From: Aquabacterium sp.
GTDB taxonomy: Bacteria; Pseudomonadota; Gammaproteobacteria; Burkholderiales; Burkholderiaceae_C
Assembly: GCF_029946005.1 (NCBI RefSeq)
Contig: NZ_JAQSDR010000039.1
Location: 1 to 64,000 of the forward strand
DNA: 64,000 nucleotides
Direction: 5' to 3'
A program made the position numbers and the translations under genes. Shown in pieces: positions 52,747-59,191 of this stretch. How positions within the stretch are numbered: the stretch's first letter is position 1; every line of letters begins with the position of its first letter. The notes beneath the pieces were generated by a model, which was not told where the DNA came from, did not search any database, and saw only the letters and a program-made list of their open reading frames with translations.

Positions 52747-55650
<2,904 letters not shown>

Positions 55651-55656
55651 GAAACT

Positions 55657-55679
55657 GGTGACGGAGGAGGACCGTCACC
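55657..55679. terminator. Hairpin between convergent gcvP and hydrolase gene
   Basis: GGTGACGG and CCGTCACC form a perfect 8-bp stem with a 7-base loop, directly at the end of gcvP and overlapping the stop of the opposite hydrolase gene. There is no T-tract, so it may be Rho-assisted or merely protect the RNA ends. Confidence 0.4.
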
Positions 55680-56538
55680 AAGCGCCGTGCGACAAGTACT
55701 TTGACAACTCCGGGCGGCTCCCCTGGGTGAACGGCGTGTAACGCCGGTCCTCATCCACGAAGCGCTTGAGCCACGCGATGGTGTAGCGACCCAGCACGGC
55801 CCGCATGCGGCTGCCTTCCAGGATGGTCGGCGTCAGGTGATCTGCTCCGGCGATCTCGATGTAGGCACTCGGCAAAGCCGCGCTCAGACTTTGAAAGACC
55901 GGCATCGAATAGGTCGCGTTGGGCGCGATCACATCCTTCTCGGCGGCCAGCACCAAGGCGGGCACCTGGAGTTGCGAAAACTCCTTTTGGGTCCCCACTG
56001 CCAGGGTCAGACCCACCACCGCCTTCAAGCCAGGGTTGCTCAAAGCCGCCGTCAAGGCCGCGCCACCGCCAGCCGAGTGGCCCATCAAGGCCAGACGGTC
56101 TGGATTAACCAGGCCCGAATAGGGCGAGGTAGCCGTCTGGCTCAAGGCCAGCACCTGCTTGAGCGCACTGGCCAGTTGAGGCGCGCGCACGTCGGGCGAA
56201 TCAAAAATGCTGTTGGTGCTCAAGTTGACCACCACAAAACCATGCGAGGCCACCCGCTCGGCCAGCCAGCTGTAGTAGCCCTGCGCCAGCAAAAAGCCTG
56301 GCGCCAGCACCACCAGGCCATAGGGCCCATCGGACTTCGCCGTGGGATAGGTCACCGTGGCGGCGCCATAGCCAGAAGGCGAGGCCACCTTGGTGTTGGC
56401 CACCGCAAAAGGCCCTTGCTTGGCCTCAAGCAAGGAGGCCGTCGGGTCAGGGCCATGCGGCGCCGGGTCCGCATGCACAGGAACAGCCATGAACAGGCAT
56501 GCCGCCAGGGTGAAGATGATTCGCGTCAACGTGCGCAT
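55675..56538 (-). CDS. Secreted alpha/beta hydrolase, PETase/cutinase-like, second copy
   Basis: A 287-residue alpha/beta hydrolase with a signal peptide ending AVPVHADP (near residue 24). The nucleophile is Ser155 in GHSAGGGAAL, with Asp202 and His234 as likely triad partners. It shares SPSGYGAATVTYP and LASALKQVLALS-type segments with its neighbour and with the polyester hydrolases of the dienelactone-hydrolase/cutinase group. Compared with PETase it lacks the Trp of the APW segment (TLAVG here) and has no disulfide cysteines. GGAGG precedes the start. It follows the first copy by 17 bp, so the two are cotranscribed; they are diverged tandem duplicates. Substrate unknown. Confidence 0.82.
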   Translation of the reverse strand: MRTLTRIIFTLAACLFMAVPVHADPAPHGPDPTASLLEAKQGPFAVANTKVASPSGYGAATVTYPTAKSDGPYGLVVLAPGFLLAQGYYSWLAERVASHGFVVVNLSTNSIFDSPDVRAPQLASALKQVLALSQTATSPYSGLVNPDRLALMGHSAGGGAALTAALSNPGLKAVVGLTLAVGTQKEFSQLQVPALVLAAEKDVIAPNATYSMPVFQSLSAALPSAYIEIAGADHLTPTILEGSRMRAVLGRYTIAWLKRFVDEDRRYTPFTQGSRPELSKYLSHGAW

Positions 56539-56555
56539 GGCAGCGTGCCTCCAGC

Positions 56556-57437
56556 TCAGTACTGACCGCGGGTGTCGAAGGCCGACATGTCCGCCGCCTT
56601 GCTCTTCACGAACGGCGTGTAGCGGGTGTCCCCGTCCACGAAACGCTTGAGCCAAGCCACCGAATACTTCGCCAGTGAGGTCTTGCACTTCTCGGCGCTG
56701 ATCTGGATGCCGCACAGGTGGTCGGCCCCGGCCAGTTCGATCTTCGCGCTGGGCAAGGCGGCATTGAAGCTGGCATAGAAGGGGTTGGAATGCGCGCTGT
56801 TGGTGGCAATGAAATCTTTCTCGTCAGAGATGATCAGCGTCGGCACCTGGACCGTCGACCACGTCTTGGTCGTGTGCCAGGGTGCCAGCGCCACCGCCGC
56901 CTTCAGCGACGGGTTGTCGCGGGCCACCACCAAGGTGCCGCCCCCGCCCATGGAATGGCCCATGGCCGCCTGGCGATTGGTGTCGGTCACACCGGAGTAA
57001 GGCGAGGTGGCGGTCTTGCTCAGCGCCACCACCTGCTGCAGCGCCTTGGCCATCTGCGTGCCACGCGAATCAGGCTGGTCGAAGGTGCTGTTGAAATTGA
57101 CCGTCACCACCACGAAACCATGGGAGGCCACACGCTCGGCCAACCATTTGTAGTAGCCCTGCACCGCCAGGAAACCCGGGGCCAGCACCACCAGGCCAAA
57201 TTGCCCTTCCGTGCGGACCGTGGGATAAAAAACCGTGCCCGCGCCATAGCCACTGGGCGCGCTCACCACCGCGCTGCTCACCTTGTAAGGGCCAGCCGCC
57301 GCCTCCAGCGATTGCACCGTGGGATCGGGTCCATGCACCTGGGCCTGGGCCAGGCCGACGACCAGCGACAACACGGCGGCGCCCAGCAGTCGGGTCTTGA
57401 ACAGGGCGCGCGATTTGATGGAAGCGGGGGTCAACAT
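56556..57437 (-). CDS. Secreted alpha/beta hydrolase, PETase/cutinase-like, first copy
   Basis: A 293-residue exported hydrolase with a signal peptide (about 1-32, ending LAQAQ). It matches Ideonella PETase in several blocks: HGPDPTVQSLEAAAGP, SGYGAGTVFYPT, LASHGFVVV-like ASHGFVVVTVN, GHSMGGGG (Ser162), APW (Trp187) and VAWLKRFVDGDTRYTPF. Asp208 and His240 complete the triad. His161 stands where PETase has Trp, Phe89 where PETase has the oxyanion Tyr, and the PETase active-site disulfide partner is absent, while Cys242 and Cys251 may pair instead. It is probably a periplasmic or secreted esterase, perhaps acting on polyesters. GAGGA precedes the ATG. Confidence 0.85.
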   Translation of the reverse strand: MLTPASIKSRALFKTRLLGAAVLSLVVGLAQAQVHGPDPTVQSLEAAAGPYKVSSAVVSAPSGYGAGTVFYPTVRTEGQFGLVVLAPGFLAVQGYYKWLAERVASHGFVVVTVNFNSTFDQPDSRGTQMAKALQQVVALSKTATSPYSGVTDTNRQAAMGHSMGGGGTLVVARDNPSLKAAVALAPWHTTKTWSTVQVPTLIISDEKDFIATNSAHSNPFYASFNAALPSAKIELAGADHLCGIQISAEKCKTSLAKYSVAWLKRFVDGDTRYTPFVKSKAADMSAFDTRGQY

Positions 57438-57554: not shown

Positions 57555-58373
57555 TCAGCGAGCGCTTTTTTTAGGCTTGTGCACTTTGGGAATTTTTTTA
57601 GCAGCATGCCAAGGTTCGAGTTCGTACTCGATCGACGCGGTGGTGAAGCGCAGCGTTTCCTTGTGTTCGGCCGACAGTTCCGCCCAGCGCTTGCCAAAGC
57701 TGCCCGCGCAGTCGCGGAACACCTCATCGGTGCTGGCCACCACGATGCGGTTGCCACCGCACTCGATGTCCAGCGCCATCACCGGCTCGCCAAAGACCTG
57801 CCAGATGCGTCCGACCAGCTTGGTGCATTCCGGCTCGATGTCCTGCAAGTTGACCACCAGGATGCCGGACTCGGCCAGGGCCTTGCGGCAGCTCTTGTAA
57901 AAATCGACGGACACCAGCGTTTCGGGCTGGCCATCGTAGTTGAAGCCATCAATCATGATCAGGTCATGCGTACCCCGCGGGGTCTTCGCGATGAAGTCCG
58001 CGCCATCACCGCACACCACGCGAAAACGATCGCTGTCAGGCGGTACCTTGAAGGCATCACGCACTTCGATCACATGGGGATTGATCTCCACCACCGTGAT
58101 GTCCGCCTGCGGCAGGTGGGCATGGCAGTACTTGGCCAGCGAGCCACCACCCAGCCCGACCATCAGGATCGAGCGGGGCTCGGGGTTCAGCATCAAAAAC
58201 GCCATCATGGCCCGCGTGTACTGCAGGTCCAGCGCGATCGGGTCATCCAGGCGCATGCGGCTCTGGATCAGCTTCAGGTCGAACTGCATCGACATCGAAT
58301 CATCGTCGGTGCTGATGAAAGGCTTCAAGGCATTGGTCTCGGCAAAGGGGCGCGAGTCTTCGAATTCAGGCAT
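57555..58373 (-). CDS. Spermidine synthase-like methyltransferase-fold protein
   Basis: A 272-residue protein of the spermidine synthase superfamily. The S-adenosylmethionine-type binding loop is ILMVGLGGGSLAKYC (near residues 68-82), with VVEINPHVIEVR and CGDGADFIAKTP following. It lacks the full N-terminal beta domain, and the substrate-binding residues of true SpeE are uncertain, so aminopropyl transfer is not assured. The C-terminal tail is Lys-rich (KVHKPKKSAR). Its ATG overlaps the ppsR stop (TGATG), linking it to the ppsR gene in this order. Function unclear. Confidence 0.72.
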   Translation of the reverse strand: MPEFEDSRPFAETNALKPFISTDDDSMSMQFDLKLIQSRMRLDDPIALDLQYTRAMMAFLMLNPEPRSILMVGLGGGSLAKYCHAHLPQADITVVEINPHVIEVRDAFKVPPDSDRFRVVCGDGADFIAKTPRGTHDLIMIDGFNYDGQPETLVSVDFYKSCRKALAESGILVVNLQDIEPECTKLVGRIWQVFGEPVMALDIECGGNRIVVASTDEVFRDCAGSFGKRWAELSAEHKETLRFTTASIEYELEPWHAAKKIPKVHKPKKSAR

Positions 58374-59191
58374 CAGTAGATCAAACGGTCAGGGCGAAGG
58401 TCTCGAAGAATCGTGGTGGCGATTTCTTCGATCGATTTGTGGGTGGACGACAACCAGGCGATGCCCTCGCGGCGCATCATGGCCTCGGCCTGATTGACCT
58501 CCTGGCGGCAGTTCTCCAGGCTGGCGTACTTGCTGCCTGGTCGGCGTTCATTGCGGATTTGGGACAGGCGCACGGGGTCAATCGTCAGGCCGAAGCATTT
58601 CTTCTTGTGTGGCTTGAGCATGGTCGGCAAAAAGCCACGCTCGAAGTCTTCCGGGATCAGGGGCACATTGGCCGCCTTGATGCCGTGCTGCATCGCCAGG
58701 TACAAGGAGGTCGGCGTCTTGCCACTGCGGCTCACGCCCACCAGCACCACGTCCGAGGTCGCCAGGTTGCGCCCCGACTGGCCGTCATCGTGCTCCAGCG
58801 TGAAATTGATGGCGTCGATGCGGTCGTTGTACTCGCGGTCCTGGCTGGCGTCGCTGAAGCGGCCCACCCGGTGGTTGGACTTCAGGCCAAATTCTTCTTC
58901 CAGCGGCTCCACGAAGGTCTTGATCATGTCGAAGACCTTGCCGTTGCAGGCCTTGAGGATGTTGAGCACATCGTCGTTGGCCAAGGTGGTGAACACCACC
59001 GCCCGCTTGCCCTCGCGCTCGCTGGCGGCATTGATCTCACGCACCACCTGGAACGCCTTGTCCACCGTGTCGATGAAGGGGCGGCGCACATGGCGCGGCT
59101 TGACCGCAAACTGGGCCAGGATGGAATTGCCCAGGGTTTCGGCGGTGATGCCGGTGCCATCGGACACGAAAAAAACACTGCGATCGGACAT
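58373..59191 (-). CDS. ppsR: PEP synthase regulatory protein (bifunctional kinase/phosphorylase)
   Basis: A 272-residue regulator of PEP synthase that inactivates it by ADP-dependent phosphorylation and reactivates it by phosphate-dependent release. The P-loop GVSRSGKTPTSLYLA is near residue 152, and the start FFVSDGTGITAETLG is typical of DUF299 proteins. It is divergent from its target ppsA across 202 bp. Coupled downstream is the spermidine-synthase-like gene. Confidence 0.95.
   Translation of the reverse strand: MSDRSVFFVSDGTGITAETLGNSILAQFAVKPRHVRRPFIDTVDKAFQVVREINAASEREGKRAVVFTTLANDDVLNILKACNGKVFDMIKTFVEPLEEEFGLKSNHRVGRFSDASQDREYNDRIDAINFTLEHDDGQSGRNLATSDVVLVGVSRSGKTPTSLYLAMQHGIKAANVPLIPEDFERGFLPTMLKPHKKKCFGLTIDPVRLSQIRNERRPGSKYASLENCRQEVNQAEAMMRREGIAWLSSTHKSIEEIATTILRDLRPDRLIY

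Follow-up and report, generated by a model that had tools for sequence, protein, structure and literature searches.

The 64,000-nucleotide window analysed here (positions 1 to 64,000 of the forward strand of contig NZ_JAQSDR010000039.1, assembly GCF_029946005.1, Aquabacterium sp.) carries two adjacent minus-strand genes, which we call hydA and hydB, for predicted exported serine hydrolases of the PETase family. Our preferred reading, to which we assign a probability of roughly 0.6, is that an old duplication gave rise to hydA as a secreted polyester-capable esterase with a relocated disulfide and to hydB as a sister enzyme shifted to other esters. The two genes belong to a known family and form a divergent, apparently constrained tandem pair, whose two active-site variants we did not meet in the excerpts of the literature consulted. 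The pair is likewise undescribed in the literature on Aquabacterium PETases and polyester hydrolases that we consulted, a body of work that mostly excluded subscription papers and was not searched by accession.

A tandem pair in the PETase family

An initial annotation of this DNA had proposed two adjacent exported alpha/beta hydrolases, and this description is borne out by two minus-strand open reading frames (ORFs) that match Pfam family PF12740, each with a hydrophobic N-terminal leader of the Sec signal peptide type (judged by eye, so that export is a prediction). The genes and the gap between them are as follows.

56556..57437, minus strand: hydA, 293-residue exported PETase-family serine hydrolase, the first enzyme of the initial annotation (ORF, Pfam, AlphaFold2, Foldseek)
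55675..56538, minus strand: hydB, 287-residue exported PETase-family serine hydrolase, the second enzyme (ORF, Pfam, AlphaFold2, Foldseek)
56539..56555, minus strand: gap of 17 bases between the hydA stop and the hydB start, containing GGAGG (by eye)

Because this gap is only 17 bases long and contains GGAGG, hydA and hydB are probably cotranscribed. The start of hydB is likely the ATG at 56538, with GGAGG ahead of it and 17 bases beyond the hydA stop; a GTG at 56715, taken from a mechanical ORF list, was dropped in its favor.

Against a curated cut-off of 28 bits, PF12740 (PETase) is matched by hydA at 2.4e-89 (299.7 bits) and by hydB at 1.3e-74 (251.4 bits), while both remain far under the cut-off of 520 for NCBIfam NF051441, the bis(hydroxyethyl) terephthalate (BHET) hydrolase BdeA (276.7 and 236.2 bits, respectively). 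The two proteins are 52% identical. Their AlphaFold2 models have mean predicted local distance difference test (pLDDT) scores of 91.5 for hydA and 93.1 for hydB, and PETases and cutinases predominate among the 50 best Foldseek rows for either protein, with template modeling scores (TM-scores) by target of 0.89 to 0.95. Alignment and predicted folds place a Ser-Asp-His triad within a GxSxG alpha/beta hydrolase fold in both enzymes.

56952..56954, minus strand: hydA catalytic Ser162 (GHSMG), aligned to IsPETase S160
56814-56816, minus strand: hydA catalytic Asp208, aligned to IsPETase D206
56718-56720, minus strand: hydA catalytic His240, aligned to IsPETase H237
56074..56076, minus strand: hydB catalytic Ser155 (GHSAG), by alignment
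55933-55935, minus strand: hydB catalytic Asp202, by alignment
55837-55839, minus strand: hydB catalytic His234, by alignment

PF12740, the triad, the fold, and an extended beta8-alpha6 loop are common to hydA, hydB, IsPETase of Ideonella sakaiensis (PDB 6eqd and 6qgc), and type IIb enzymes. IsPETase entries among the Foldseek rows are 45 to 46% identical to hydA and 38 to 40% identical to hydB, and IsPETase Trp185, Met161, and Ile208 are retained in hydA. In contrast to IsPETase, both proteins have His for Trp159, Leu for Ser238, no Cys203, and no C-terminal disulfide; Ser214 is replaced by His in hydA and by Tyr in hydB, and the two lie in a clade separate from IsPETase. The PETase sequence blocks that had been quoted for the pair are present in hydA, but hydB reads SGYGAATV, GHSAGGGA, IAWLKRF, and DRRY and has no APW. 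In the part of their paper available to us, Joo et al. 2018 (PMC5785972) describe type II PET [poly(ethylene terephthalate)] hydrolases by an extended beta8-alpha6 loop and an additional Cys203-Cys239 disulfide. The loop is found in both hydA and hydB, where it is 5 residues longer than in 8ety and position 246 is filled, and the disulfide is found in neither, the corresponding residues being Asp205 and Cys242 in hydA and Ala199 and Thr236 in hydB.

An apparent exchange of disulfide partners in hydA

The only cysteines in hydA are Cys242 and Cys251, which the initial annotation took for a new pair replacing the active-site disulfide. This is correct for Cys251 and for the loss of Cys203, now Asp205, but Cys242 is the old cysteine of the classical bridge.

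56712..56714, minus strand: hydA Cys242, retained IsPETase Cys239 (alignment)
56823..56825, minus strand: hydA Asp205, replacing IsPETase Cys203 (alignment)
56685..56687, minus strand: hydA Cys251, proposed as the new partner of Cys242, where IsPETase has Asn246 (alignment, AlphaFold2)

In the AlphaFold2 model, a helix begins at residue 249, and Cys251 is part of its first turn. We compared 140 distinct homologues, a nonrandom sample that combines named loci (the best 80 of at least 425 confirmed hits, obtained with two peptide patterns, one of which accepts only Met or Ala as the residue following the catalytic Ser) with hits from searches of the Aquabacterium genus and family. Cys occupies the IsPETase 239 position in 37 of them, 31 with Cys203 and 6 with Cys246; these six are exactly the hydA orthologues, all have Asp at 203, and they are the sole rows with Cys246. 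None of the 140 has Cys239 without either partner, and none has Cys203 without Cys239. Since Cys239 is always accompanied by Cys203 or Cys246 and Cys203 never occurs without Cys239, the active-site disulfide seems to have been relocated from Cys239-Cys203 to Cys239-Cys246 (IsPETase numbers), that is, an old cysteine has apparently taken a new partner. Such a bridge would tie the histidine loop to the beginning of the helix that follows, and no longer to the aspartate loop. As reported in the section of PMC5785972 seen, the IsPETase variant C203A/C239A falls in melting temperature (Tm) from 46.8 to 33.6 C and is also reduced in activity, and it is therefore plausible that some bridge would be retained on the histidine loop.

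A conserved pocket in hydA and an altered one in hydB

The subsite I set of Joo et al. 2018 (Y/F87, M161, W185, I208), described in the available text of PMC5785972 as highly conserved across all 69 PETase-like enzymes compared there, is complete in hydA (F89, M163, W187, I210), in agreement with the earlier remark that the first enzyme keeps the Trp of APW. It is incomplete in hydB, which keeps F82 and I204 but has lost two of the four side chains (Ala156 and Val181). That the second enzyme lacks both this Trp and the cysteines had also been noted and is confirmed by Val181 and by Cys14, the sole cysteine of hydB, which lies within the leader.

56877..56879, minus strand: hydA Trp187, retained IsPETase W185 (alignment)
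56071..56073, minus strand: hydB Ala156, replacing IsPETase Met161 (alignment)
55996..55998, minus strand: hydB Val181, replacing IsPETase Trp185 (alignment)
55909..55911, minus strand: hydB Tyr210 at the IsPETase Ser214 / PHL7 His185 position (alignment)

The pocket of hydA also resembles that of PHL7, considered here together with the type I cutinases (TfCut2). PHL7 subsite I comprises F63, M132, W156, and I179 together with the triad His, with L93, Q95, H185, and F189 behind it (PMC10076380, in part). The four subsite I residues and the triad His are identical in hydA, and the second-shell Q, H, and F as well as His at position 159 and Leu at position 238 are common to both (the PHL7 row of our residue table is entry 9qnm, an engineered chain). 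The second shell reads F119, Q121, H216, F220 in hydA and F112, S114, Y210, V214 in hydB. Unlike PHL7 and the type I cutinases, hydA has the longer histidine loop (by the same 5 residues relative to 8ety), the Cys242/Cys251 pair, and no C-terminal disulfide.

Of the 140 homologues, 131 have Met at position 161, 6 have Ala, and 3 are gapped there. The six Ala161 rows are the two hydB proteins and four other Aquabacterium proteins (L010, L014, L017, L044), and in every one of them Trp185 is gone and position 214 carries Tyr or Phe. Altogether, 10 of the 140 are without Trp185: these six, three without the catalytic Ser, and L047, which has Tyr. Most relatives read Met161-Trp185-His214 where hydB reads Ala-Val-Tyr. 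Because position 214 adjoins the Trp185 ring in known enzymes (PMC10080609 and PMC10076380, as far as available), this triple change looks like a shift of the aromatic wall to a neighboring position. The Ala-Val-Tyr set of hydB would remove the tryptophan clamp, with the tyrosine walling the pocket from next to it, and specificity would move toward different esters, probably soluble or aliphatic/bulky ones, leaving little activity on PET. In the accessible parts of four studies, the subsite I Trp and the Cys203-Cys239 bridge are tied to PETase activity and stability (PMC5785972, PMC10098701, PMC10076380, PMC10080609), and a table in one of them (PMC10098701) gives the BHET activity left in IsPETase mutants as 5% for W185A and 52% for M161A.

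A probable old duplication at a conserved locus

Our main tree has 87 rows; a second tree drops four long rows and the columns of the traits under discussion (255 of 309 columns kept). In both, the six hydA orthologues have as their sister group hydB and its one orthologue, from genome G016 (100/95 in the main tree, 99/92 without trait columns), and this relationship, together with the tandem arrangement, supports the duplication that had been suggested. The hydA/hydB clade (100/99) holds 22 rows, every one of which comes from the Aquabacterium set; IsPETase, 7dzt, and 7cwq share another clade (100/98) and 8ety, the PHL7 entry, and the Thermobifida fusca cutinases form a third (100/97). As a positive control, a protein from G093 lies at practically zero tree distance from IsPETase.

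A recent duplication was rejected: the synonymous divergence (dS) between hydA and hydB inside one genome is 1.23 and 1.41, near saturation, versus 0.18 to 0.65 for hydA among the four nearest carriers, and hydB falls outside all six hydA sequences. A strong mosaic or gene conversion was rejected as well, as sliding windows give no clear signal. We conclude that hydA and hydB are probably the products of an old tandem duplication in Aquabacterium. Family members also stand side by side in T. fusca (L097), but there the two copies lie close together, with end branches of 0.02 and 0.06, whereas hydA and hydB are 52% identical. Tandem pairs occur in 3 of the 80 best named loci (L072, L097, L131) and at the G251 and G381 loci, and G257 has two family members about 1.1 kb apart.

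The flanking genes provide anchors for comparing genomes; the first, named from its sequence, is what we take to be gcvP.

52747..55650, plus strand: presumed gcvP (glycine cleavage P protein), convergent neighbor and synteny anchor
57555..58373, minus strand: spermidine-synthase-like protein, upstream of hydA on the same strand (PF01564)
58373..59191, minus strand: ppsR-like kinase/pyrophosphorylase, synteny anchor (PF03618)

The order is ppsR, (spermidine-synthase-like), hydA, (hydB), gcvP. A PET-specific operon was rejected, as these flanks look housekeeping. Among 38 Aquabacterium genomes with a gcvP match, hydA is present at the gcvP-ppsR locus in 6, among them G017, G002, G038, and G008, and hydB is intact in 2 (our window and G016); the 38 are our window plus 37 flanks of about 2 to 3.6 kb or more, of which those of G025, G013, and G015 are short, and a second gcvP copy in G033 lies outside the count. 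Anywhere in the genome, hydA finds matches in 31 of 42 Aquabacterium genomes at E <= 0.001 and in 28 of 42 at E <= 1e-20, with up to five per genome. Searches at the family, order, and class levels scored at most six candidates per genome, so that their counts are lower bounds: hydA is matched at E <= 1e-55 in at least 11 of 399 family genomes (four Aquabacterium), and hydB at E <= 1e-60 in at least 2 of 399 family genomes (both Aquabacterium) and at E <= 1e-40 in at least 1 of 399 order genomes (our own) and at least 3 of 369 class genomes (our own and two of one genus).

For the two genomes that carry both genes, the ratio of nonsynonymous to synonymous divergence (dN/dS) is 0.155 for hydB (0.108/0.695, 287 codons) and 0.158 for hydA, and it ranges from 0.117 to 0.240 over 15 hydA pairs, some of which take in codons upstream of the start since the frames of relatives run from stop to stop. 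These values indicate purifying selection on both genes where they are present. Given the Pfam E-values, the synteny conserved in relatives, and the dN/dS values, the pair is beyond chance.

What the enzymes may act on

We consider it most likely that hydA is a secreted esterase with polyester-hydrolase potential and that hydB prefers other esters. Outside the cytoplasm, hydA would act as a broad esterase attacking polyesters (cutin-, polyhydroxyalkanoate-, or polycaprolactone [PCL]-like, possibly PET). A bolder version, which we hold only tentatively, is that the locus displays two natural rewirings, a partner-swapped disulfide and an aromatic clamp shifted to a new place (Met161->Ala, Trp185->Val/Ala, Tyr/Phe at 214), the second of which would have evolved at least twice in Aquabacterium (in hydB and in the L010 clade) as a repeated change away from polyester-type toward another acyl specificity, with hydA attacking the polymer and hydB other esters or released oligomers. 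In either version, sister genes at one locus offer natural variants of the subsite I Trp and of the active-site bridge, plus repeated loss of one copy, and so constitute a natural test of which features let PETase-family enzymes act on plastics.

Several observations weigh against our preferred reading. The 22-row clade contains none of IsPETase, 7dzt, 7cwq, the PHL7 entry, the T. fusca cutinases, and 8ety, so the phylogenetic check put forward in the initial annotation comes out mixed: both enzymes fall within the PETase family, but in an Aquabacterium-only group without a placed characterised member. The C-terminal disulfide Cys273-Cys289, present in all six enzymes aligned by Joo et al. 2018 (PMC5785972, in the part seen), is missing: hydA has Lys and Gly at these positions, and hydB has Gln and Gly. 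In 104 of the 140 homologues, Cys stands at each of them. Relative to PHL7, hydA has Phe119 for Leu93 in the second shell and Leu90 for Thr in subsite II. No substrate-linked gene is found among the flanks (gcvP, the spermidine-synthase-like gene, and ppsR). On the side of hydB, its dN/dS stems from a single pair, its loss from several relatives makes an important role less likely, and one part of the proposed aromatic swap is not exclusive: of 10 homologues with an aromatic residue at 214, four keep Trp185 (L025, L031, L062, L142).

The first of these points also favors the most serious alternative, which is possible though clearly less probable in our judgment: that hydA and hydB are general secreted lipases or esterases acting on short- and medium-chain lipids or Tweens, whose PETase resemblance is historical and whose natural substrates are not polyesters. 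The Streptomyces exfoliatus lipase 1jfr is among the close folds found by Foldseek. Moreover, according to the excerpt of PMC10547765 available, only 2 of 8 synthesised family candidates produced large PCL clear zones, and a candidate 79% identical to IsPETase gave none, although expression of the inactive candidates was unconfirmed. This alternative is countered by the retention in hydA of the conserved subsite I residues, and by another Aquabacterium family member, Dh5 (MBI3384080.1), which causes clearing of PCL and liberates products from PET powder (same excerpt). Genus, family, extended loop, and the Leu after the catalytic His are common to Dh5, hydA, and hydB. Among the 140 homologues, the residues described for Dh5 there (T, A, H, L, M) occur together in L048 alone, which we infer to be Dh5; because L048 sits outside the hydA/hydB clade, the activity of Dh5 is not directly transferable to the pair.

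It is unlikely, in our view, that hydB is simply a degenerating duplicate heading for loss, even though the gene has evidently decayed elsewhere. At the same locus in G029, a fossil (L032:1522-1773) preserves hydB residues 52-103 at 71% and 254-287 at 59% identity, is interrupted by one stop, lacks a large internal segment, and is matched by hydA at 50%. In a tree of weak support (92/94 and 93/94), G029 falls outside the five nearest genomes. In G017, a terminal scar after hydA reads GSSPELSRDLSHGA and agrees with the end of hydB, GSRPELSKYLSHGA, at 11 of 14 residues. In G038, by dS nearest to G016, the hydA stop directly adjoins the gcvP stop and hydB is absent, and G032 has neither gene at the locus. 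(Scars below the reach of tblastn were sought by eye in the junctions of G038, G002, G008, G017, G016, and G032; the remaining flanks were covered by tblastn.) Given the fossil, the scar, and the two absences, the sequences tell us that hydB is old at this locus and has been lost more than once, and it is dispensable in the relatives without it. The stem branch of hydB is also the longer one (0.70 versus 0.31 for hydA in the 87-row tree). In both carriers, however, the frame is open and the triad intact, and the dN/dS of hydB is close to that of hydA in the same genomes, on which ground we rejected hydB as a pseudogene in its carriers. The specialisation put forward in the initial annotation is thereby upheld only as sequence divergence under constraint, visible in the stem branches, the dN/dS of one pair, and the two lost subsite I side chains.

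A last alternative, that hydB is no duplicate of hydA but one of the Trp-less Aquabacterium proteins (those with GHSAGGG) that entered the locus next to hydA and converged on it later by gene conversion, appeals to the shared M161A, W185 loss, and aromatic 214 and to an approximately unbiased (AU) test that leaves a single clade unrejected, but is improbable because both trees join hydB to hydA with starred support even without trait columns, both groups are on long branches that would rather attract each other, and hydB is nearer to hydA than to the Trp-less clade in 11 of 13 sliding windows (equal in 1, lower in 1). L010, L014, L017, and L044 agree with hydB in Ala for Met161, no Trp185, and an aromatic residue (Phe) at 214, but they keep the classical Cys203-Cys239 pair, and their sister is a different subgroup (99/96). 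With the trait columns removed from the tree, parsimony gives 2 origins of Ala161, 3 Trp losses, and 5 origins of aromatic 214, and forcing the six Ala161 rows into one clade costs 17.0 log-likelihood units (AU p = 0.095; 0.068 on the full tree). The triple change in these four proteins is probably independent of hydB; as the AU test leaves a single origin unrejected, convergence is favored but not proven.

Other family members and side observations

The genome has four family members: hydA, hydB, and single copies on contigs 14 and 8. The enzyme of contig 14 (L034:6525-7409; 186572-187342) has the cysteines of both IsPETase disulfides and Trp185, and its best solved relative is 7dzt (4.2e-91); by this measure it, and not hydA or hydB, is the closest to the IsPETase type in this genome. 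A search for an MHETase partner with the tannase family PF07519 gave 0 matches in this genome, but equally 0 in 14 control genomes.

Three further genomes contain 534-residue frames (stop to stop) whose C-terminal approximately 250 residues form a PETase domain: L027:703-2304 on the plus strand in G037 (PF12740, 6.5e-56), L030:1423-3024 on the minus strand in G040 (7.4e-56), and L061:253-1854 on the plus strand in G005 (5.7e-46). These catalytically dead PETase-like domains lack the catalytic Ser and His but keep Cys at all four IsPETase disulfide positions, and they are perhaps a polyester-binding or decoy module. Over 256 residues, the L027 protein and the contig 14 enzyme share 44% identity.

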